NCBI GenBank assembly: GCA_947581645.1
Contig: CANPVF010000119.1
Location: 1-38,453 of the forward strand
Reading direction: 5' to 3'
From: Candidatus Caribbeanibacter nitroreducens
GTDB taxonomy: Bacteria > Gemmatimonadota > Gemmatimonadetes > Palauibacterales > Palauibacteraceae
Length of the DNA stretch: 38,453 nucleotides
Part shown: in pieces, positions 1-26,453 of the stretch
Layout: each line of letters opens with the position of its first letter
Numbering within the stretch: the stretch's first letter is position 1
Position numbers and translations under genes: made by a program
Notes under the pieces: generated by a model
Seen by the model: only the letters and a program-made list of their open reading frames with translations
What the model was told of the DNA's origin: nothing
The model's database searches: none

Positions 1-185
1 AGGAGCGGGCGACGCCGGAGCGGATGGCGGACGCGGTGGACCCTCTCCTCGCGCGGGGGCGGGAGCGCCGGCGCGTCCTGGAGGGCCTGGCCGAGGTGCG
101 CGGCCGCCTGGGTCGCCGGGGAGTGGCGAGCCGGGTGGCCGATCGCTGCGTGGGCCTGCTGGACCGGGGGCGCCGGGCCGCGTGA
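1..185 (+). CDS. lpxB: Lipid-A-disaccharide synthase, C-terminal end (partial)
   Basis: Only the last 60 codons are present; the frame is open to the left edge and stops with TGA at 183-185. The visible tail starts E-R-A-T-P-E-R-M-A and runs through a basic helical stretch to a G-V-A-S-R-V-A segment. This is the pattern of the LpxB C-terminus, where A/T-P-E is followed by a helix and a G-A-S-x-R-V-A-like end. LpxB condenses UDP-diacylglucosamine with lipid X to give the lipid A disaccharide. Its product is the substrate of LpxK, whose gene overlaps it by four bases (GTGA), which supports the call. With so little sequence the identification rests largely on this neighbour. Confidence 0.65.
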   Translation, partial: ERATPERMADAVDPLLARGRERRRVLEGLAEVRGRLGRRGVASRVADRCVGLLDRGRRAA

Positions 186-1219
186 CCCCGGCCCCCACGC
201 GGAGGGATCTCCGGCCGGCGGTGGAGCGCCGGATGCGGGAGGCCTGGAGGGGTGTCCCCTCCTCGTGGCTCCGGGCGGCCGGCGCCGTGTTCGGCCTGGG
301 CGCCGGCCTCCGGACACTGGCCCACGACGCGGGGCTGGCGGGGTCGTACCGGGCGGAGCTCCCGGTGCTCTCGGTCGGGTCGCTGGCCGTGGGCGGGAGC
401 GGGAAGACACCGATCTCGGCCGCGGCGGCGCGGTGGGCGCGGGAGGCGGGCGCCTCGCCGGCGGTGATCACGCCGGGCTTCCCGGACGAGATCGCGGTCC
501 ACGCCTCCCTCAATCCCGACGTGCCGACGCTGGGTGCCCGGGACCGGGCCGCTGCCGTCCGCCGCGCCCGGCGCGGCGGCGCGGACCTGGCCGTCCTGGA
601 CGACGGCTTCCAGCACCGGAGGGTGGCCCGGGACCTGGACTGGGCGGTGGTGGACGAGGAGCGCGCCGAACGAGGGGCCTGGCGCCTCCTTCCTGCCGGC
701 CCCGGGCGGGAACGCTGGGGCGCCCTGGGGCGGGCGGACGCCGTCGTCCTGACACGCCGTCGGAGGGGCGACGGCGCTTCGAAGTCTCGGGCCGGGGCCC
801 TGGCGGAGGGGCTGGAGCGCCAGTTCCCGTCGGCGGCGGTGGCCCGCTGCGAGCTGCGTGCCGGACCGCTGGTCCCGGCCAACGGCGTCGCGGCCGACGC
901 CGGCGAGCCGCGGCCGCTGCTGGCGTTTGCCTCCATCATGAAGGGGGAAGACTTTCTGGAGGCTCTGCGCGGGCGCCGGCCGGAGATCGAGCACGAGTAC
1001 CTGTTCCCCGACCACCGTCCCGTACCGGACGTCCGCCTGCAGGAGATGATCCGCCTGGCGGGAGAGGGAGGCATGGTGGGGACACGGAAGGACGTGGTGA
1101 AGGTGCAGGAACGCGTGGCCGACAGGACGCCGCTCTGGTGCGCCTCGGAGGAGCTGGTGTGGACGCGCGGGGCGTCGGTCCTGCGGCGCCAGGTGGAAGC
1201 ACTGGTGGGGGCGCCGTGA
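182..1219 (+). CDS. lpxK: Tetraacyldisaccharide 4'-kinase LpxK
   Basis: LpxK phosphorylates the 4' position of the lipid A disaccharide using ATP at the inner face of the cytoplasmic membrane. The 345-residue protein has the family P-loop, V-G-G-S-G-K-T-P at about residues 70-77, and the Walker-B-like D-D-G-F-Q-H at 140-145. F-P-D-H at 275-278 supplies the histidine thought to pair with the catalytic aspartate, and a T-R-K-D segment at 301-304 replaces the usual T-E-K-D. The segment between P-loop and Walker B is short: the usual R-G-Y-G motif is absent and only P-D-E (101-103) remains of the G-D-E motif. GTG was chosen as start because it overlaps the lpxB stop and the frame begins there. 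The end overlaps nadB by four bases. Confidence 0.9.
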   Translation: MTPAPTRRDLRPAVERRMREAWRGVPSSWLRAAGAVFGLGAGLRTLAHDAGLAGSYRAELPVLSVGSLAVGGSGKTPISAAAARWAREAGASPAVITPGFPDEIAVHASLNPDVPTLGARDRAAAVRRARRGGADLAVLDDGFQHRRVARDLDWAVVDEERAERGAWRLLPAGPGRERWGALGRADAVVLTRRRRGDGASKSRAGALAEGLERQFPSAAVARCELRAGPLVPANGVAADAGEPRPLLAFASIMKGEDFLEALRGRRPEIEHEYLFPDHRPVPDVRLQEMIRLAGEGGMVGTRKDVVKVQERVADRTPLWCASEELVWTRGASVLRRQVEALVGAP

Positions 1220-2790
1220 AGGACGTGGAGGCCGACGTCCTGGTCGTCGGCTCGGGAATCGCGGGCCTGGCCTTCTCCCTCCGTGCCTCCCGGTACGCCG
1301 ACGTGCTGATGGTCACGAAGAAGGACCGGGCGGACAGCAACACCAACTACGCGCAGGGGGGCATCGCCGCGGTCTTCGACCCCGAGGACTCCTACGAGGA
1401 CCACCGGCGGGACACGGTCCTCGCCGGGGCCGGCCTGTGCCATCCGGACTCCGTGGATCGCCTCGTCCGGGAGGGACCGGAGCGGGTCCGGGAGCTCATC
1501 GCCTGGGGCGTCGAGTTCAGCCGTCGCGACGGCGAGCTGGACCTCGCCCGGGAGGGCGGACACAGCCATCGCCGGATCCTCCACTCCGCCGACCTCACCG
1601 GCCGCGAGATCGAGGAGTCGCTGCTGCGGGCGGTATCCGAGGAAGAGCGGATCCGGACGGCCGAGGATCACTTCGTGTGGTCGCTCACCGCCTCCCACGG
1701 TCCCGCCGGAGGGCGGAGGCGGTGCACGGGCGCCGTGGTTCTGGACGTCCAGGAGGGCGAGTTCCTGCGGGTGCGCTCCCGGGCGGTGATGCTCGCCGCC
1801 GGCGGGTGCGGCAGGGTGTACCGTCACACGACGAACCCGGCCATCGCCACCGGCGACGGTGTGGCCCTGGCCTGGCAGGTGGGCGCCGCCGTGGCCAACC
1901 TGGAGTTCATGCAGTTCCACCCCACGGCCCTGTATCCCGCCGGCTCCCACGCCTTCCTGATCTCCGAGGCCGTCCGGGGGGAAGGGGCGGTGCTCCGGCG
2001 GCGCGACGGCGAGCGCTTCATGGAGCGCTACCATCCCTCCGGCTCGCTGGCGCCGCGGGACGTGGTCGCCCGGGCGATCCACGCCGAGATGAGGGAGGCC
2101 GGAGACGACCACGTGCTGCTGGATCTGGACCCACTCCCGGACGGATGCCTGGAGGAGCGGTTCCCGAACATCCGGCGCCGGTGCGCGGAGGAGGGGCTGG
2201 ACCTGCCGGCGCAGCCCATCCCCGTGGTCCCGGCGGCCCACTACCAGTGCGGCGGTGCCTACACGGACGCCGGAGGCCGCACCACGCTGCGGGGGCTGTA
2301 CGCCGCGGGCGAGACCGCCTGCACAGGCGTGCACGGCGCGAACCGCCTGGCGTCGAACTCGCTGCTGGAGGCCGTGGTCTACGCCGCCCGGGCGAGCCGG
2401 AGCGTCCGCCGGGAGCTGGCGGACCTGCCGCCGCCGCGGAGCGGGGGGCCGGAGGAGGAGCCGGCCATGGAGCGACCGGGAACGGATCCCGACGAGGTGG
2501 GCGACCGGGTCCGGGAGCTCATGTGGGAGGACGTGGGCATCGTCCGCTCCGACGAGGGGCTGACGCGGGCGCGCCGGGGGCTGGCCGAGCTGAGCGAGGA
2601 GCCGCTGGCCCGGGACGGGTCCCCCACCGGCGCCATGGAGGCCCGGGAGACGGCCTTCACGCTCCGGCTCGCGCGTCTCATGGTCCGCGCGGCGGGCCGC
2701 CGGGAGGAGAGCAGGGGGCTCCACTACACGCAGAGCCACCCGTACCGGGACAGCGAGAACTACCTGCACGACACGGTCCTGGCACCGTGA
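1216..2790 (+). CDS. nadB: L-aspartate oxidase NadB
   Basis: NadB oxidises L-aspartate to iminoaspartate with FAD, the first step of de novo NAD synthesis. The protein is 524 residues, close to the family length. It has the FAD-binding G-S-G-I-A-G-L at about residues 12-18, T-N-Y-A-Q-G-G-I-A soon after, and the E-G-G-H-S-x-x-R-I region near 113. M-Q-F-H-P-T-A-L-Y lies near 231, and H-G-A-N-R-L-A-S-N-S-L-L-E near 372. These distinguish it from the closely related succinate dehydrogenase flavoprotein, together with the absence of sdh partners next door. The GTG start is inside the lpxK stop (GTGA), and the end overlaps rlmH the same way. nadA and nadC are not in the window. Confidence 0.93.
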   Translation: MKDVEADVLVVGSGIAGLAFSLRASRYADVLMVTKKDRADSNTNYAQGGIAAVFDPEDSYEDHRRDTVLAGAGLCHPDSVDRLVREGPERVRELIAWGVEFSRRDGELDLAREGGHSHRRILHSADLTGREIEESLLRAVSEEERIRTAEDHFVWSLTASHGPAGGRRRCTGAVVLDVQEGEFLRVRSRAVMLAAGGCGRVYRHTTNPAIATGDGVALAWQVGAAVANLEFMQFHPTALYPAGSHAFLISEAVRGEGAVLRRRDGERFMERYHPSGSLAPRDVVARAIHAEMREAGDDHVLLDLDPLPDGCLEERFPNIRRRCAEEGLDLPAQPIPVVPAAHYQCGGAYTDAGGRTTLRGLYAAGETACTGVHGANRLASNSLLEAVVYAARASRSVRRELADLPPPRSGGPEEEPAMERPGTDPDEVGDRVRELMWEDVGIVRSDEGLTRARRGLAELSEEPLARDGSPTGAMEARETAFTLRLARLMVRAAGRREESRGLHYTQSHPYRDSENYLHDTVLAP

Positions 2791-3254
2791 AGGTCATGGT
2801 GGTGGCCGTCGGTTCGGCCGGAAGCGGTCCGGTGGCGGAGGCCGTCCGCGACTACGAGGAGCGTGCCTCCCGCTACTTCGACCTCGAGACGGTCGAGGTC
2901 CCGGCGGGGGGCGGCGGGGAGCCCGCCGAGGTCAGGAGACAGGAGGGCGATCGACTGTTCGATCGCGTCCCGGAGGAGCTTCACTGGTTCGCTCTCACCC
3001 GGAAGGGGCGCGGGATGCGCTCACGCCGCCTCGCCCGCTACCTGGAGGAGCTGGCCACCTACGGACGGGCCGGGGCCGCGTTCCTCGTGGGCGGGGCCCA
3101 CGGGCTGGACGAGCGAGTGCTCGAGCGGGCCCGGTACCGGCTCTCGCTCTCGCCCATGACGCTGCCCCACGCGCTGGCTCGACTGGTCCTCACGGAGCAG
3201 GTCTACCGCGCCGGCACGATCGCCCGGGGCGAGCCCTATCACAAGGAGCGGTGA
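2787..3254 (+). CDS. rlmH: 23S rRNA pseudouridine-1915 N3-methyltransferase RlmH
   Basis: RlmH is a small SPOUT-class methyltransferase that methylates pseudouridine 1915 in helix 69 of 23S rRNA on assembled 70S ribosomes. The 155-residue length equals that of the E. coli enzyme. The C-terminal half carries the trefoil-knot SAM site F-L-V-G-G-A-H-G (about residues 100-107). It then has the S-x-M-T-L-P-H-A-L-A-R stretch and E-Q-V-Y-R-A, and ends R-G-E-P-Y-H-K, the family signature. The start is taken as the GTG overlapping the nadB stop. An in-frame ATG three codons later is possible and would remove only three residues. Confidence 0.93.
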   Translation: MKVMVVAVGSAGSGPVAEAVRDYEERASRYFDLETVEVPAGGGGEPAEVRRQEGDRLFDRVPEELHWFALTRKGRGMRSRRLARYLEELATYGRAGAAFLVGGAHGLDERVLERARYRLSLSPMTLPHALARLVLTEQVYRAGTIARGEPYHKER

Positions 3255-3276
3255 TGCTCCGCTCCGGACCCCGGAG

Positions 3277-4083
3277 GTGTCACGTCCGTTGACGACGCAC
3301 GACGAGAGCCCGGCGGAGGGCGCCGGGGGCCCGGATCCGGCCCCGGACGCGGACGACGCCTGGTTCCGCAGGTGGTTCGGGCCCGAGTATCTGGCCCTGT
3401 ATCCCCACCGGGACCGGGAGGAGGCCGAGCTCGGGATCCGGCTCTTCCTGCGGGAGGCGGACGCCGCCCCCGGGGATCGGATCCTGGACCTGGGATGCGG
3501 ACAGGGACGGCACCTGGCGGCGTTCCGGGAGCGCGGCCTGGAGGGTGTGGGGCTGGACCTCTCGCGCCCTCTGCTCCGCCGGGCACGGGCGGCCACGGAC
3601 GGCCGAACGCCCCTGGTCCAGGCGGACATGCGCCGCGTGCCGCTGGCCGACGGCATCTTCGACGCGGTGACCAGCTTCTTCACGTCCTTCGGGTACTTCG
3701 CGTCGCGCAGCGAGGATCGGAGGGTGCTGAGGGAGGTCCGCCGGGTCCTGCGCCCCGGAGGCGCGTACCTGCTCGACTTCCTGAACGCGGAACAGGTCCG
3801 GGCGGAGCTGGTGCCCGAGGAGCAGGCCACGGTGGACGGGAAGACGGTGATACAGAGCAGGGAGATCCGCGAGGGGCACGTGGTGAAGCGAATCGAGATT
3901 CGGCCCGGGGGCGATGAGGCGCCGAAGGTCTATCACGAGCGGGTGCGTCTCTACGAGCCCGGCGAGCTCGTGGAGATGCTCGGTGAGGCCTCGCTTCCCG
4001 TGGAGGCCCGCTTCGGCGACTACGACGGCTCGGACTTCGAGCCGACGTCTCCCCGGTTCATCGCCGTCGGGCGGGCCGCGTGA
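3277..4083 (+). CDS. Class I SAM-dependent methyltransferase, coupled to bshC
   Basis: The protein is about 268 residues with a Rossmann-type methyltransferase core. Motif I, I-L-D-L-G-C-G-Q-G-R-H-L, lies at about residues 69-80, an acidic residue ends strand 2 (G-L-D-L-S), and Q-A-D-M-R marks motif II. Y-L-L-D-F after R-P-G-G is the post-motif strand. The C-terminal part (about 175-265) is beta-rich, as in small-molecule methyltransferases. The substrate cannot be read from sequence. Its stop overlaps the bshC start by four bases, so a bacillithiol-related substrate is a reasonable guess. The start is unsure: GGAGG at 3273-3277 runs into the GTG at 3277, so the in-frame TTG at 3289 may be the true start. 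Confidence 0.85.
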   Translation: MSRPLTTHDESPAEGAGGPDPAPDADDAWFRRWFGPEYLALYPHRDREEAELGIRLFLREADAAPGDRILDLGCGQGRHLAAFRERGLEGVGLDLSRPLLRRARAATDGRTPLVQADMRRVPLADGIFDAVTSFFTSFGYFASRSEDRRVLREVRRVLRPGGAYLLDFLNAEQVRAELVPEEQATVDGKTVIQSREIREGHVVKRIEIRPGGDEAPKVYHERVRLYEPGELVEMLGEASLPVEARFGDYDGSDFEPTSPRFIAVGRAA

Positions 4084-5693
4084 GCCCGGCCCCCTCCATC
4101 CGTCCCCGGGCCCCGGGAGCCGAGGGGTCGCTGGCCCGGGACCTGTCGCGGGCGGCGCCGAGGGCCACCGACCTCTTCCCCGAGGGCGTGCTCTCGCCCG
4201 GACGGCCCGGCGGGCCACGGGGGCGAGCGGCCCGGATCGACGCCGACGCCTTCGGCACCACCACGCCGGCGGCCCGGGAGCGCCTGGAGCGGATCCTCGA
4301 CGGAGACGGGGTCCTGGTGAGCACGGGACAGCAGCCGGTGCTCTTTACGGGACCGCTTTACGTGCTGTACAAGGCCCTCGGGGCCATTCAGCTGGCCGAC
4401 GAGGTGGAGGAGGCCACCGGGCGGCCGGCCCTGGCGTCCTTCTGGATCGCGTCGGACGACCACGACTGGGGGGAGGTCGGTGGGGCGCGGGTCCTGGACC
4501 GGGAGAACCGTCTCCGGTCGATCCGGATCGAGCCCCCCGCCGATCGCGCGGATCGGGCGGCGGGCCCCACGCGGCTGCCCGAGGCCGTCAACGATCGCCT
4601 CGACCAACTGTCCGATCTCCTTCCCGATTCGGAGTTTGTCGGTGAGTACCTGGAGCTGTTTCGAGACGCGTATCGCCCGGGTCGTCCGGTGGCCGAGGCC
4701 TTCGGACGAGCCCTGTCCGGGGTGCTCGGCCGGCGCCCCATGGCGTGGCTGGACACGGGCCGGGAGGAGGTGAAGCGCGCCTCGAGGCCGCTCCTCCGCC
4801 GCGCGCTCGAGGAGGCGGTCGAGGGGGAGGCGGCGATGCGGCGGGGCACGGAGAGGGTGCGGGAGGCCGGCTACGACGTGCAGATCCCGCTCATGGAGGG
4901 CGGGACCCAGGTCTTCTTCGACACCGGCGAGGCCCGCGTGCGCCTGTACCGAAGCGGATCGGGCGACTTCCTCCTCGGTCGCGACGGTGCGTCGAGGGCC
5001 GCGGAGGAGGTGCTGGGCGAGCTGGAGCGGGAGCCGACCCGGTTCAGCCCCAACGTCTCCCTGCGCCCGGTCCTGGAGTCCTGGCTCCTTCCGGTGGAGT
5101 ACTCCGTGGTCGGCCCCGGTGAGACGGCCTACTGGGCCCAGCTGCCGCCGCTGTTCGAGCACCGGGACGTCGAGATGCCCGCCCTCCGCACGCGCCCCTC
5201 CTGGGTGGTCGTGGAGGACAAGATCGGGAAGGTGCTCCGGAAGCTGGAGGCCGACGTGGAGGACTTCCGCGACGGCGGTGAGCAGCTCATCCACGAGGTC
5301 GTGTCCCGCTCCCGCCCCGAGGCAGTGGAGGCGGCGCTGGGAGAGCTCCGGGCCGCGATCCACGCCTCGACGGAGGAGGTCGAGGAGGCCCTGGAGCGGG
5401 AGCTTCCCGGGATTCGCTCCTCGGTGGGCAAGGCCCGGAGCGACCTGTTCGGGGCCGCGGACGAGCTGGAGGAGGCGGTCGACGGCCGGGTGGAGGAGCG
5501 CCAGGAGGTGCTGGTGCGGCAGATCCGGAAGGCCGCCGCCCACCTGTATCCGGACGGAAGCCCCCAGGAGCGGGTGCTGAACCCCCTGTACTACCTGGCC
5601 CGCTACGGCGCGGACTTCCTGGCGGCCGTGGAGGAAGCCGGCCGACAGCGTCCCCTCCGTCCCGGCCCCGATCCCGGCGGGTCGACTCCTTGA
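4080..5693 (+). CDS. bshC: Bacillithiol synthase (cysteine-adding enzyme) BshC
   Basis: BshC adds cysteine to glucosaminyl-malate, the last step of bacillithiol synthesis. The 537-residue length fits the family (about 540). Diagnostic segments are S-T-G-Q-Q-P-V-L-F-T-G-P-L-Y (about residues 81-94) and F-W-I-A-S-D-D-H-D-W (about 121-130), the counterpart of the usual F-W-x-A-x-E-D-H-D. R-P-V-L-E-S-W-L-L-P lies near 330, G-P-G-E-T-A-Y near 345, and the C-terminus has a coiled-coil region (about 365-490). Q-E-R near the end matches the family's closing motif. BshA and BshB are not in this window. The GTG start overlaps the methyltransferase stop, and the stop overlaps the murJ start. Confidence 0.9.
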   Translation: MSPAPSIRPRAPGAEGSLARDLSRAAPRATDLFPEGVLSPGRPGGPRGRAARIDADAFGTTTPAARERLERILDGDGVLVSTGQQPVLFTGPLYVLYKALGAIQLADEVEEATGRPALASFWIASDDHDWGEVGGARVLDRENRLRSIRIEPPADRADRAAGPTRLPEAVNDRLDQLSDLLPDSEFVGEYLELFRDAYRPGRPVAEAFGRALSGVLGRRPMAWLDTGREEVKRASRPLLRRALEEAVEGEAAMRRGTERVREAGYDVQIPLMEGGTQVFFDTGEARVRLYRSGSGDFLLGRDGASRAAEEVLGELEREPTRFSPNVSLRPVLESWLLPVEYSVVGPGETAYWAQLPPLFEHRDVEMPALRTRPSWVVVEDKIGKVLRKLEADVEDFRDGGEQLIHEVVSRSRPEAVEAALGELRAAIHASTEEVEEALERELPGIRSSVGKARSDLFGAADELEEAVDGRVEERQEVLVRQIRKAAAHLYPDGSPQERVLNPLYYLARYGADFLAAVEEAGRQRPLRPGPDPGGSTP

Positions 5694-7312
5694 AGCTCCG
5701 CTCCTCCAGCAGGGACGCCTTCTCGGTCGGGTCCGGGATCTTCGTCAGCCGGATCACCGGCCTGATCCGCGATCAGGTCATCGCCGCGTTCTTCGGCACG
5801 TCCCTGGTCGTGGACGCGTTCTACGCCGCGCTGCGGATCCCCAACATCATCCGGAACCTGCTGGGCGAGGGGACGCTCTCGGCGGCCTTCGTCCCCGTGT
5901 ACTCGAGCCTCCTCTCCCGCGAGGGCAGGGAGGAGGACGCCACCCGCCTCGCCCGGTCCATGCTCGGCGCCATGCTGGCGGCCGCGGCCCTGCTGAGCGC
6001 GCTGGGCATCGCCCTGGCCCCGTACCTCACGCGCCTGGTGGCCCCGGGCCTGGGCGCGGAGACCATGGAACTGGCCTCGTCCATGGTCCCCATCCTGTTT
6101 CCCATGGCCGGGGCCATGATGATCGGGGCCTGGGCCCTGGGCGTGCTCAACAGCCACGACGAGTTCTTCCTCCCCTTCGTGGCTCCGGTGGCGTGGAACG
6201 TGGCGCAGATCGGGGGCCTCCTCCTGGGGGCCTGGCAGGGCTGGGAGCCGCTGATCCACGTCCTCGCATGGTCGGCGCTGGCGGGGGGCGTGCTACAGGT
6301 CGCCGTCCAGCTCCCGGCCGTCCGCCGCCGGGTGGGGAGCCTGGCCCCCCGGCTCGAGTGGAGCTGGGAGCCCCTCCGGCGGGTGGTCCGGAACATGGGG
6401 CCGGTGGCCGGGAGCCAGGGCATCTTCCAGTTCTCGAGCTACGCCGACGTCTTCCTGGCCAGCTTCCTCGTGCAGGGCGCCGTGGGGGCGCCGGCCTGGC
6501 TCTCCGGGGCGGGATCCCTGGCCGCCCTCTACTTCGCGCAGCGGGTCGCCTACGTGCCCCTGAGCCTGTTCGGGGTCTCCGTGGCGGCGTCCTCGCTGCC
6601 GGAGATGTCGCGCAAGGCGGAGAGGCGGGACGCCGTGCGCCGCCGGGTCGTGAACGGATTCTTCCAGATCCTCTTCTTCGTCTTTCCGGCGGCGGTGGCC
6701 ATGATCCTCTTCGGAGACCTGGCCGTGCGGGTGCTCTTCCAGCGCGGCGACTTCGGTGCCGCAAGCACGGCGGTGGTGAGCGCGGTGCTGGTGGCCTACG
6801 CCGTCGGCATCGTGGCCAACAGCTCCGTGAAGCTCTTCGCCAGCGGCTTCCACGCCATGCAGGACACGAAGACCCCGATGAAGTACGCCGCCGTGGGCGT
6901 GGGTACGGGTGTCGCGGCCAGCGCCCTCCTCATGCGGCCGCTGGGGGTTCCGGGCCTGGCCCTGGGCGGGGCCCTCGGCGCCTGGCTCAACCTGGGGCTC
7001 CTGTGGAGCGGGCTCCGGGGCCGTCTGGGCGCCCTGTTCGATCGGGAGGCGCTCCTGGCGGTGGGACGGATCGCCCTGGCCGGGGTCGTGGCCGCGGCCG
7101 CGGGGCTGGGGGCGCGGGAGCTCCTGGCCGGGTGGATCGGCACCGCCGGCACCGTGAACGCGCTGCTGGTCCTGGCCGGAACGCTGGGGGTTGCGGGTGT
7201 ACCATACCTCCTGATCGTGAGCACGCCGCCGGTCGTGGTGCCGCCCCCCGACCGGGCTCCCGAGGAATCCCCACCGACGGACGAGACGGAACCGGACGAT
7301 GCCGCCACGTGA
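5690..7312 (+). CDS. murJ: Lipid II flippase MurJ
   Basis: MurJ is the MOP-superfamily flippase that moves lipid II across the cytoplasmic membrane for peptidoglycan synthesis. The 540-residue protein is hydrophobic throughout, consistent with the family's 14 transmembrane helices. The N-terminal signature is clear: S-R-I-T-G-L-I-R-D-Q, then D-A-F-Y-A-A-L-R-I-P-N and G-E-G-T-L-S-A-A-F-V-P-V-Y-S (about residues 19-69). A Pro/Glu/Asp-rich cytoplasmic tail of about 30 residues ends the protein. The start is a TTG overlapping the bshC stop (TTGA), an uncommon start codon supported by the signature beginning about 20 residues later. The last 14 bases overlap uvrC. Confidence 0.93.
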   Translation: MKLRSSSRDAFSVGSGIFVSRITGLIRDQVIAAFFGTSLVVDAFYAALRIPNIIRNLLGEGTLSAAFVPVYSSLLSREGREEDATRLARSMLGAMLAAAALLSALGIALAPYLTRLVAPGLGAETMELASSMVPILFPMAGAMMIGAWALGVLNSHDEFFLPFVAPVAWNVAQIGGLLLGAWQGWEPLIHVLAWSALAGGVLQVAVQLPAVRRRVGSLAPRLEWSWEPLRRVVRNMGPVAGSQGIFQFSSYADVFLASFLVQGAVGAPAWLSGAGSLAALYFAQRVAYVPLSLFGVSVAASSLPEMSRKAERRDAVRRRVVNGFFQILFFVFPAAVAMILFGDLAVRVLFQRGDFGAASTAVVSAVLVAYAVGIVANSSVKLFASGFHAMQDTKTPMKYAAVGVGTGVAASALLMRPLGVPGLALGGALGAWLNLGLLWSGLRGRLGALFDREALLAVGRIALAGVVAAAAGLGARELLAGWIGTAGTVNALLVLAGTLGVAGVPYLLIVSTPPVVVPPPDRAPEESPPTDETEPDDAAT

Positions 7313-9221
7313 GGACCTGCTGGAGGAGGTCCGTTCCCTCCCGGACCGCCCCGGCGTCTACGTCTTCCACGACGACGAGGGCGACGTCCTGTACGTGGGC
7401 AAGGCCAAGTCCCTGCGGTCCCGGGTGCGGAGCTACTTCGGCCGCGACCGGAACCAGTCCCTGAAGCTCCGGGAGCTGAAGCGTCGGATCCGCTCCTTCG
7501 ACACCTTCGTCCTGGACTCCGAGGCGGAGGCGCTTCTCCTCGAGGCCAACCTCATCAAGGAGCACGCGCCGCCCTTCAACATCCAGCTCCGGGACGACAA
7601 GACCTATCCCTACATCAAGGTCACCGTCGACGAGCCGTTCCCGCGGGTCTTCGTCACACGGCAGCTGGAGCGCGACGGCTCCCGCTACTACGGGCCGTTC
7701 ACCGACGTGGGCGCCATGCGGCAGGCGCTCCGTGCCGTGAAGCGCATCTTCTCGATTCGGACCTGCCACTGGGACCTGCCGGAGGACGCCCCGGACCGTC
7801 CCTGCCTGGACTACCACATCGACCGATGCGAGGCACCCTGCGTGGGGTACCAGTCCCGGGAGGAGTATCGGGAGATGATCGACCGCGTCCTGAAGGTGCT
7901 CGGCGGACAGACGTCGGAGGTGAAGGGGCAGCTCCAGCAGCGGATGGAGGAGGCCGTCGAGGAGCTCGAATTCGAGCGGGCCGCCACCCTCCGGGACACG
8001 CTCCGGGGGCTCGAGGCCTTCGAGCGGCGGCGGACGCCCGTGGACTTCCGGGGCGGCGACCGCGACGTGGTCGGCATCGCGCGAAGCGGACCGCGGGTGA
8101 GCGGAGTCGTGCTGAAGGTCCGCGAGGGCCGGCTCCTCGGACGGCAGGTGTATCATCTCCGGAACGCCGGCGAGGAGAGTGACGCCGATGTGACGGGGGC
8201 GCTGATCAAGGGGTTCTACCTCAGGCACGAGGACCTGCCGCCGGAGCTGGTGGTGCCGGCCGACTTCGAGGATCGGGACCTGGTGGAGGAGTATCTGTCC
8301 GTGAAGCGGGACGGCGTGTTCCGGATCCACGTCCCGCAGCGCGGACGGAAGCGTCGGCTGGTGGAGCTGGCGCGCGAGAACGCCACGCACCTGGTGGAGC
8401 AGGAGGAGCTGAGGGAGAGCTCCGACGGGGACGGCCCGGAGACGGATCGGGGGGACGGGGCCCCCGGAAATGGTCGACCCCGGCCCGCTCGGGGCGGGGA
8501 CGCGGTGGCCCGACGCGCGGGCGCCTCCCTGCAGGAGGCCCTGGAGCTCGAGGGGCCGCCCCGGAGCCTGGTCTGCTTCGACGTCTCCACCCTGGGCGGA
8601 CGCGAGTCGGTGGGGAGCGCCGTCTGGCAGGAGGACGGGGAGCCGCTCAAGGACGAGTACCGGCGGTTTCGCATCGAGTCCGTTCCGGACGGGGCCACCG
8701 ACGACTACGCCATGATGCAGGAGATCGTGAGCCGGTACTTCGACCGCCGCGTCCGCGAGGGGAGCCGCCTCCCGGACCTGGTCGTCATCGACGGCGGCAA
8801 GGGACAGCTCGGGGCGGCGCTGCAGGCCATGGAGTCCGCCGGGGCCTCGGACGTGCCGGTGGTGGGCCTGGCGAAGCGCGAGGAGGAGGTCTTCGTCCCC
8901 GGACGGAGCGATCCCGTGCGTTTCGGAGCGACCGACCCGGGCCTCCACGCCCTGCAGCGCGTGCGCGACGAGGCGCACCGGTTCGCGGTGAGCTACAGCC
9001 GCACGCTCCGCAAGCGCCGGACGCTGCGGTCGGAGCTGTCGGAGGTCCCGGGAGTGGGGCCGAGCCGGGAGCAGCAGCTCCTGCGGACGTTCGGCAGCCT
9101 GGACCGGGTCCGGGAGGCCGACGTGGACGAGCTCCAGGACGTGGAGGGGATCGGTCCGGCCACGGCACGGAAGATCCGGGAGCGCCTCTCCCGCCCCGAC
9201 GCCGCGGAGGCCGAAGCGTGA
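7299..9221 (+). CDS. uvrC: UvrABC excinuclease subunit C
   Basis: UvrC makes both incisions around a UvrAB-bound lesion in nucleotide excision repair. The 640-residue protein starts with a GIY-YIG nuclease domain (G-V-Y-V-F ... L-Y-V-G-K-A-K, about residues 19-37). A UVR motif at about 205-240 (E-F-E-R-A-A-T-L-R-D) follows. The RNase H-like endonuclease domain has C-F-D-V-S near 428, V-V-I-D-G-G-K-G-Q-L near 490 and R-D-E-A-H-R-F-A near 558. Tandem helix-hairpin-helix motifs close it (E-V-P-G-V-G-P and V-E-G-I-G-P-A). A Gly/Asp/Arg-rich linker of about 45 residues before the RNase H-like domain has no family counterpart I recognise. The ATG lies inside murJ; the stop overlaps gltX. Confidence 0.95.
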   Translation: MPPREDLLEEVRSLPDRPGVYVFHDDEGDVLYVGKAKSLRSRVRSYFGRDRNQSLKLRELKRRIRSFDTFVLDSEAEALLLEANLIKEHAPPFNIQLRDDKTYPYIKVTVDEPFPRVFVTRQLERDGSRYYGPFTDVGAMRQALRAVKRIFSIRTCHWDLPEDAPDRPCLDYHIDRCEAPCVGYQSREEYREMIDRVLKVLGGQTSEVKGQLQQRMEEAVEELEFERAATLRDTLRGLEAFERRRTPVDFRGGDRDVVGIARSGPRVSGVVLKVREGRLLGRQVYHLRNAGEESDADVTGALIKGFYLRHEDLPPELVVPADFEDRDLVEEYLSVKRDGVFRIHVPQRGRKRRLVELARENATHLVEQEELRESSDGDGPETDRGDGAPGNGRPRPARGGDAVARRAGASLQEALELEGPPRSLVCFDVSTLGGRESVGSAVWQEDGEPLKDEYRRFRIESVPDGATDDYAMMQEIVSRYFDRRVREGSRLPDLVVIDGGKGQLGAALQAMESAGASDVPVVGLAKREEEVFVPGRSDPVRFGATDPGLHALQRVRDEAHRFAVSYSRTLRKRRTLRSELSEVPGVGPSREQQLLRTFGSLDRVREADVDELQDVEGIGPATARKIRERLSRPDAAEAEA

Positions 9222-10682
9222 CGGTCCGGACCCGCTTCGCGCCCAGCCCGACGGGCGCGCTCCACCTGGGAAACGCCCGCACGGCGGTGCTCAACTGGCT
9301 CTTCGCCCGCCACGAGGAGGGGCGCTTCGTCCTCCGCTTCGAGGACACCGACGTGGAGCGAAACGTGGAGGCCGCCGAGGCGCAGGTCCTGGAGAGCCTG
9401 GACTGGCTGGGCCTGGGCCGCGACGAGGGGCCCGACGTCGGCGGCGAGTACGGACCCTACCGTCAGAGCGAGCGGGGCGGCCGGTACAGGGACGCGGCCG
9501 AGCGGCTCCTGGACCGCGGGCGGGCCTACCACTGCTACTGCCTGCCGGAGGAGCTGGAGGCCCGCCGGGACGCCGCGATGGCCCGGGGGGAGCAGCCCAC
9601 CTACGACGGCCGCTGCCGCGATCTCTCCGCCGACGAGGAGGCGGAGCTCCGGGCCCAGGGGCGGTCGCCCAGCGTTCGGCTCCGGGTGGATCCCGGCCCC
9701 GTCCGCTTCGAGGACCGGGTCCGCGGGGAGCTGTCGATCCGGGGCGAGGAGTTCGGCGACTTCGTGCTCCTCCGCTCCGACGGCCGCCCCACGTACAATT
9801 TCGCCGTGGTGGTGGACGACCTGCTGATGGAGATCACGCACGTGATCCGGGGGGCGGGGCACCTCTCCAACACGCCGAAGCAGGTCCTCCTCTACCGGGC
9901 GATCGGGCGGGAGCCGCCGGCGTTCGTCCACGTCCCGCTGGTGCTGGCCCCCGGCGGAGAGAAGCTGTCGAAGCGCGAGGGAGCGACCAGCGTCCTGGAC
10001 TACCGGGACCGGGGGTACCACCCCGACGCCGTGGTCAACTACCTGTCGCTGCTCGCCTGGTCCAGCGAGTCCGGGGACGAGTACCTGACCCGGGACCGCC
10101 TGGTGCGGGAGATCGACCTGGACCGGATCGGGGTGGCCGACGCGGAGCTGGACCCGGAGAAGATGAAGTGGCTCTCGGGCCTCCACCTCCGGGCGGAGCC
10201 GCCGGAACGGCTGGCGGACCGTCTGGTCCAGGTCGGCGACCTCGGGGACGAGCCGGAGATCTCGCGCGGAGAGCTGGTGCGGGGCGCCGAGCTCCTGGCG
10301 GAGCGGGTGCAGCTGGTGACCGAGCTGGCGGAGGAGATGGAACGCATCTTCCGGCCTCCCCGGCGAGAGACGTCCGAGGCCCGGGAGATCCTGGAGCGCG
10401 ACGGGGCGCTGGCCGTGGTCCGGGCGACCGGGCGGGCCTGGGAAGACCTGGAGTCGTGGTCGGGCGAGGAGCTCGACGCGGCCCTCCGGGAGGTCGGGGA
10501 GGCCACCGGCGCCTCGGGGCGGGACCTGTACCAGCCCGTGCGGGCAGCGCTCACCGGCGAGGCACACGGCCCGGCGCTCCCCACGGTGGCCCTGGTCCTG
10601 GGCCGGCGGCGTACCCTGGACCGGCTGCGGGACGCGGCCGCAGACGCGCAGACGAGCGGACGACACGAGGCGGGAGAGGGGC

Positions 10683-10702
<20 letters not shown>
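9218..10702 (+). CDS. gltX: Glutamyl-tRNA synthetase
   Basis: The enzyme charges tRNA with glutamate. At 494 residues it is a normal bacterial class I GluRS. The HIGH motif is H-L-G-N at 16-19, within F-A-P-S-P-T-G-A-L-H-L-G-N. The zinc site is Y-H-C-Y-C (104-108) with Y-D-G-R-C-R (129-134), and KMSKS reads K-L-S-K-R at 249-253. An alpha-helical anticodon-binding region follows. The conserved active-site segment normally R-G-E-D/E-H reads R-G-A-G-H at 211-215, an unusual loss of both acidic residues. Whether it also misacylates tRNA-Gln cannot be told here. The GTG start overlaps the uvrC stop; the end overlaps the next gene by 20 bases. Confidence 0.94.
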
Positions 10703-11846
<1,144 letters not shown>

Positions 11847-25221: not shown

Positions 25222-26453
25222 CCTGCGTTCCCTCCGTCGTCCCTGCGCGCCGACGCCGCCGCGCGGTAGATCCCCTCCAGGGACTCGGCGATGGCGTCGG
25301 ACGAGAAGTTGTCCAGCACGTAGCGTCTTCCCCGGGCGGCGATCTCCCGGGCCCGGTCCGGGTCGGAGGCGGCGTCCAGGACGGCCTCGGCCAGGGCCTC
25401 CGGGTCCCGGGGCGGCACCCGCCACCCCGTCTCGCCGTCCCGCACGATGTCGACGATGCCCCCCACGCCGGAGGCGATCACCGGCCGCTCGAAGAGGAGC
25501 GCCTCGAGGAGGACCACGCCGAGCCCCTCGGTGTCGCCCTTCTCGTCCACCACGGCCGGCAGGACGAAGGCGTCGCAGGTGCGGTACAGCGACTCCAGCC
25601 GCTCCGCGGGAATGTAGCCGGTGAGCTCCACCCGCTCCTCCACGCCCGCCTCGCGGGCGGCGGCCTCGATCCGGGGACGCCACTCCCCTTCCCCGACCAC
25701 CGTGACCACGGCCGAACGCTCTTCGAGAATCCGGGGGAGAGCGCGCACAAGGTATTCGACCCCTTTTCGCTCCACCAGCCGGCCCACGAAGAGCAGGCGC
25801 AGGGGCCCTTCGTCCTCGAACGGCTCCCGCGTCTCCGCGCCGGGCCCGGCGGACTCGTCGAACGGAGCCGGCGACGGGACGACGCGGACCTCCCGGTCGG
25901 TGTACTCCCGCACCTTCTCGGCGGTGGCGCTGGAGTTGGCGGTCATGGCGTCCGCCGAGCGCGTGGTCCATCGCAGGAAGGGCCGGAGCCAGGACATGCG
26001 CCGCTTCACCCACGTGAGCTCGACGCTGTAGTAGCTGGAGACCACGGCGGTGCGCCCCCCGGAGGCGAGACGGAGGGCCGATCCGAAGAGCGAATGCGGC
26101 ATGGGCCAGTGAACGTGGACCACGTCCCACTCGCCCGTGAGGCCCCGGCGGAGGGACGACAGCGTCCCTCCGGCCAGGTACAGCGGGACGAGGGAGGCGT
26201 ACCCTGCGGACCGGCGGATGCGGTCGGGCACCGTCTCGTCGTGGGTCAGGGTCTCCCAGGAGGCCGGCGCGTACCGGAAGCGATGGACCGGGATGCCGTG
26301 GACCTCGTGGTCGCCGTCGCCGCGGTAGGCCGAGGTGAGCACCTGCGCGTCGACCCCGCGGTCGCGCAGAGCGCGGATCAGCTCCACCATCCAGGGCGTG
26401 ATCGGGTCGTTCTCGTCCCTGGGGAAGGCCGTGGTGACGTGCAGGACCCTCAC
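25218..26453 (-). CDS. Family 4 (GT-B) glycosyltransferase
   Basis: The 411-residue protein has the two Rossmann-like halves of GT-B enzymes. The N-terminal half begins V-L-H-V-T-T-A-F-P-R and contains D-V-V-H-V-H-W-P near residue 107. The C-terminal half has L-F-V-G-R-L-V-E-R-K-G-V near 225 and the donor-binding E-G-L-G-V-V-L-L-E-A-L near 315. G-G-I-V-D-I-V-R-D-G-E-T-G-W follows. No membrane helix is present, so it acts on the cytoplasmic face with a nucleotide sugar. The donor and acceptor are unknown. The start is the GTG overlapping the GT39 stop; the stop overlaps the YfhO-family start. Confidence 0.88.
   Translation of the reverse strand: MRVLHVTTAFPRDENDPITPWMVELIRALRDRGVDAQVLTSAYRGDGDHEVHGIPVHRFRYAPASWETLTHDETVPDRIRRSAGYASLVPLYLAGGTLSSLRRGLTGEWDVVHVHWPMPHSLFGSALRLASGGRTAVVSSYYSVELTWVKRRMSWLRPFLRWTTRSADAMTANSSATAEKVREYTDREVRVVPSPAPFDESAGPGAETREPFEDEGPLRLLFVGRLVERKGVEYLVRALPRILEERSAVVTVVGEGEWRPRIEAAAREAGVEERVELTGYIPAERLESLYRTCDAFVLPAVVDEKGDTEGLGVVLLEALLFERPVIASGVGGIVDIVRDGETGWRVPPRDPEALAEAVLDAASDPDRAREIAARGRRYVLDNFSSDAIAESLEGIYRAAASARRDDGGNAG

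Follow-up and report, generated by a model that had tools for sequence, protein, structure and literature searches.

The gene directly upstream of bshC in the 38,453-nucleotide stretch analysed here (contig CANPVF010000119.1 of Candidatus Caribbeanibacter nitroreducens, phylum Gemmatimonadota; henceforth the window) is very probably nmbA, encoding the bacillithiol N-methyltransferase, the assignment that best explains the evidence. The enzyme family is known already and the window gene is a further member of it; the useful additions made here are the operon linkage of nmbA to bshC, the complete gene clusters found in other phyla and a warning about a look-alike. The activity and substrate of the predicted enzyme in this lineage are inferred from homology, diagnostic residues, fold, the pathway genes of the same genome and the pairing of the two genes.

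In Chlorobaculum tepidum, deletion of CT1040 (nmbA) abolishes N-methyl-bacillithiol (N-Me-BSH) while bacillithiol (BSH) stays or accumulates in the mutant, and N-methyl-cysteine has never been seen (PMC6282198). Purified NmbA of C. tepidum and Paenibacillus polymyxa methylates BSH in vitro and gave no product with BSSB, GSH or glycine; the same work names Gemmatimonadota among the phyla that often carry nmbA (PMC12719100). The original prediction, of a methyltransferase coupled to bshC that would methylate bacillithiol or a precursor, is thus less novel than it implied; as for the substrate, published work favours bacillithiol itself and not a precursor. An operon, adjacency or synteny of nmbA goes unmentioned in the main texts of both papers, as does an operon in the published commentary, and the literature examined held no thiol measurements from Gemmatimonadota.

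Pfam assigns the open reading frame to the class I SAM methyltransferases (Methyltransf_25/11). In a phmmer search of all PDB chains the best match of its product was 9RI2, the NmbA of C. tepidum (CtNmbA; E 6.2e-43), far ahead of the second-best chain, 1WZN (E 4.9e-16). Aligned to residues 15–260 of CtNmbA, as taken from the 9RI2 alignment, it showed 37.7% identity over 247 columns, i.e. over the full domain (E 3e-44 in a small sequence set). This is the alignment with the Chlorobium-type enzyme that had been proposed as a check; among characterised homologues, the nearest has bacillithiol as its substrate and not an unrelated compound. The published thresholds for NmbA orthologs (>25% identity, >80% coverage, E <1e-20) are passed (37.7% over 247 columns; E 6e-43 against the PDB). 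All 34 near-invariant positions, defined as columns at least 90% conserved among 74 NmbA from outside Gemmatimonadota, are kept in the window protein (34/34), as they are in CtNmbA. Among them is the tyrosine-phenylalanine pair Y134/F135 (C. tepidum numbering), proposed to stack on or hold the adenine of SAM (PMC12719100).

The window protein contains motif I, its AlphaFold model (pLDDT 88.6) shows the class I SAM fold, and Foldseek also ranked 9RI2 first. Other beta-capped methyltransferases followed closely, some with higher TM-scores, so the fold alone would not decide the identity, and we gave no weight to the cap details of the model since AlphaFold is known to misplace the cap strands of NmbA (PMC12719100, 2025). 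In the tree, the window sequence fell within a Gemmatimonadota clade (support 99/95) placed among the NmbA of Chlorobiota, Paenibacillus and relatives of Polaribacter. The Paenibacillus sequences are close homologues of P. polymyxa NmbA (PpNmbA), which is NmbA by published assay. Very long branches lead to the outgroups, one of whose rows is misplaced, and the root split reaches only 91/89; the outer limit of the family therefore rests more on the residues and the score gap than on the tree. None of the curated methyltransferase families scored above its NCBIfam cut-off, the best being the DVU_1556 family (75 bits, where 155 are required); UbiE/MenG quinone, BioC, arsenite (ArsM) and other named methyltransferases were tried and rejected, with scores far below their cut-offs. 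The remaining methyltransferases of the same genome are distant from the window protein (best E 4e-14 at 30% identity).

Features of the nmbA-bshC region and bacillithiol synthesis genes elsewhere in the genome (window positions unless a contig, C128 or C142, is given)
Feature	Position	Strand	Remarks
lpxK	182..1219	+	operon context; PF02606; synteny
nadB-like FAD enzyme	1216..2790	+	operon context; PF00890, PF02910
rlmH	2787..3254	+	conserved upstream neighbour; PF02590, 145 bits; synteny
GGAGGTG	3273..3279	+	candidate ribosome-binding site for TTG 3289 (inferred from a reading of the sequence); contains the GTG 3277 start
nmbA	3277..4083	+	predicted bacillithiol N-methyltransferase; GTG start, 268 aa; probably begins at TTG 3289, giving 264 aa
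GTGA	4080..4083	+	stop-start overlap nmbA/bshC, 4 nt; sequence reading
bshC	4080..5693	+	cysteine-adding enzyme of bacillithiol synthesis; GTG start, 537 aa; TIGR03998, PF10079, PF24850
murJ	5690..7312	+	conserved downstream neighbour, 4-nt overlap with bshC; PF03023; synteny
uvrC	7299..9221	+	operon context; PF08459 and others; synteny
bshA	C128:2731-3852		534 bits, above curated cut-off
bshB1	C142:35398-36066		221 bits, above curated cut-off

The start of nmbA at 3277 reflects only the choice of the longest open reading frame and is uncertain, because GGAGGTG fits the in-frame TTG at 3289 better and residues 1–24 of the product are predicted to be disordered (pLDDT <50 in the AlphaFold model). 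The better placing of this motif makes TTG 3289 the likely true start. Compared with C. tepidum NmbA, the window protein carries an extra, probably disordered N-terminus.

The downstream gene scored 350.1 bits with the BshC equivalog TIGR03998 (curated cut-off 265.8), in addition to its two Pfam matches, and is accordingly a BshC. As originally described, the methyltransferase frame overlaps bshC through GTGA, the two sharing 4080–4083. The same 4-nt overlap occurs in the window at the lpxK/nadB, nadB/rlmH, bshC/murJ and uvrC/gltX junctions, and since these neighbouring genes are unrelated the nmbA/bshC overlap alone is weak evidence; we dropped it as an argument by itself. What goes beyond chance is the conservation of the nmbA-bshC pair, unlike a 4-nt overlap within this operon. 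Nine genes from lpxK to thrC (window 182–11846) lie on one strand, with overlaps of 4 to 20 nt at seven of the eight junctions; only rlmH/nmbA has a gap, of 22 or 34 nt. The nadB-like gene we take to be L-aspartate oxidase from its domains and general knowledge, and the NCBIfam RlmH models match the rlmH frame below their cut-offs.

The genome, which is about 96% complete, also encodes the rest of the pathway. With bshA and bshB1 located on other contigs, bshA, bshB and bshC co-occur with nmbA in one genome. Matches above the curated cut-offs were also obtained for a bacillithiol disulfide reductase of the YpdA type (413 bits) and for a bacilliredoxin of the YphP/YqiW family (204 bits). A glycosyltransferase within the window (25257–26132, minus strand) has a weak likeness to BshA (95 bits against a cut-off of 274) and was rejected as bshA, being below the cut-off and with bshA found on another contig.

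A survey of bshC neighbourhoods, also suggested at the outset, bore the pairing out. The searches detected nmbA in 47 of 60 relatives and bshC in 53. In the window and in 29 relatives the locus was read at the level of single bases; at all 30, bshC directly follows nmbA, with an overlap of 4 nt at 29 and 1 nt at one, and the overlap persists while the start codon varies between ATG, GTG and TTG. Of 101 genomes sampled evenly over the phylum, 43 carry an nmbA of the same class as the window gene, and in every one of them it adjoins bshC (43/43). Other lineages whose loci were read have the operon and no nmbA (L049–L055): lpxK and, where detected, rlmH lie upstream of bshC, and murJ downstream. 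Since these lineages keep the rest of the operon, nmbA has been gained or lost at one fixed place beside bshC. Searches of five of these genomes (L049 and L051–L054, in G057, G052, G058, G055 and G039) found no nmbA-like gene elsewhere, and these lineages are predicted to make only unmethylated bacillithiol. Gemmatimonadota with the nmbA-bshC pair, on the other hand, very likely make N-methyl-bacillithiol, for which there is now firm genomic support in the phylum. Because some lineages have nmbA at this operon position and others do not, they offer a natural comparison for the role of the methyl group.

A scan of genome contigs gave 80 NmbA loci. Outside Gemmatimonadota, bshC was again found after nmbA in two Hydrogenedentota, in one each of Calditrichota, Zixibacteria, Lentisphaerales and Planctomycetota, and in one further bacterium. 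Four of these loci are full nmbA-bshC-bshB1-bshA clusters (L086, L117, L122 and L126, from Hydrogenedentota, the further bacterium, Lentisphaerales and Planctomycetota) and a fifth, L134, has nmbA-bshC-bshB1; all the bshB1 and bshA genes in them score above curated cut-offs. Complete clusters thus occur in several little-studied phyla. A search with the proteins of the window found none of its lpxK-rlmH-murJ neighbours at the nmbA-bshC loci outside the phylum, and the pairing is therefore not explained by a shared operon history. At the Chlorobiota, Bacteroidota and Bacillota loci no bshC was found beside nmbA (up to 6 kb on each side, some ended by the contig). This sets the window apart from the Paenibacillus loci and from those of the Chlorobiaceae; in C. 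tepidum, the locus tags CT1040 and CT1558 are far apart. Two loci stand out for other reasons. For one nmbA, on a contig labelled Armatimonadetes (L067), the sister sequence comes from Chlorobiota (L066), which would mean a transfer or a mislabelled bin. Another, in a Sumerlaeota bin (L133:4090-5799), belongs to an open frame of 570 codons, some 330 of them extra and upstream, either a fusion or a mere open frame.

In the proposed mechanism, the precursor would come from BshA and BshB1, whose genes lie elsewhere in the genome; BshC would add cysteine to glucosaminyl-malate, and directly afterwards NmbA would methylate the cysteine amine of the bacillithiol, with SAM as the methyl donor, giving N-methyl-bacillithiol. 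nmbA and bshC, whose ends overlap, would be co-transcribed and co-translated from a single message, so that the enzymes for the final step of synthesis and for methylation are produced together, and the YpdA-type reductase and the bacilliredoxin would recycle the thiol in its methylated form and put it to use. Given the overlap of the two genes throughout the phylum, NmbA and BshC might also form a complex and channel new bacillithiol to methylation, so that nearly all of it would be methylated and N-methyl-bacillithiol would be the working thiol and no side form, although we consider this bolder version unlikely.

A point against the NmbA assignment is that the protein shares only about 38% identity with a characterised NmbA, in a kind of enzyme that switches substrate easily. 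An enzyme derived from NmbA could still work beside bacillithiol synthesis with a shifted substrate (glucosaminyl-malate, cysteine or a bacillithiol conjugate), and a divergent subfamily of the same phylum, located in another operon and with a probably changed role (see below), gives this some plausibility. We nevertheless judge it quite improbable, as the window protein has kept 34/34 NmbA residues, many of which are gone from the divergent subfamily, and as the C. tepidum results (no N-methyl-cysteine ever seen, accumulation of BSH in the nmbA mutant; PMC6282198) do not favour the alternative substrates.

It is highly improbable that the pair merely reflects a frozen gene order, with an unrelated housekeeping methyltransferase (of quinones, tRNA or rRNA) sitting in a compact lpxK-nadB-rlmH-bshC-murJ-uvrC operon. 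The conservation of the whole operon across the class and its dense 4-nt overlaps would agree with such a reading, but nmbA is present or absent at exactly one place while the rest stays (L049–L055), the pair occurs outside the phylum away from lpxK, rlmH and murJ, four times together with bshB1 and bshA, and the quinone, BioC and other equivalog models score far below cut-off. That the gene is a pseudogene or encodes an inactive enzyme is scarcely credible: its frame is open, its SAM motifs are complete, all diagnostic residues are kept and nothing was found in favour of this view. The idea of a methyltransferase acting on bacillithiol has thus gained support from the CtNmbA match, the fold, the residues, the pathway genes and the pairing, and the preferred reading remains NmbA.

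Not every NmbA-like gene of the phylum is NmbA, an assumption that we rejected on finding a second, divergent class (L057, L058 and L142–L151). In profile searches its members score about 145–178 bits, against at least 224 for the bshC-linked class. They share the superfamily and the SAM motifs with the window protein and show 27–33% identity to CtNmbA, but unlike the window gene they were never beside bshC in the 41 cases where the genome has a bshC, and most copies are without the NmbA residues R33, A38, Y134, D161, N164, K198, I200, E214, V216 and R254. Six genomes carry both classes. Because the identity of this look-alike to CtNmbA comes close to the published limit for orthologs, N-Me-BSH is possibly overpredicted from some genomes of the phylum; nmbA directly before bshC provides a simple genomic marker to tell true NmbA from it. 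At six loci (L057, L142, L143, L146, L149 and L151) the divergent gene separates the genes for the large and small chains of a split methylmalonyl-CoA mutase and has meaB and a carboxyltransferase gene close by, and three more (L145, L148 and L150) have part of this arrangement. The operon order, as at L142:5569-6648, is meaB, large chain, methyltransferase, small B12-binding chain and carboxyltransferase.
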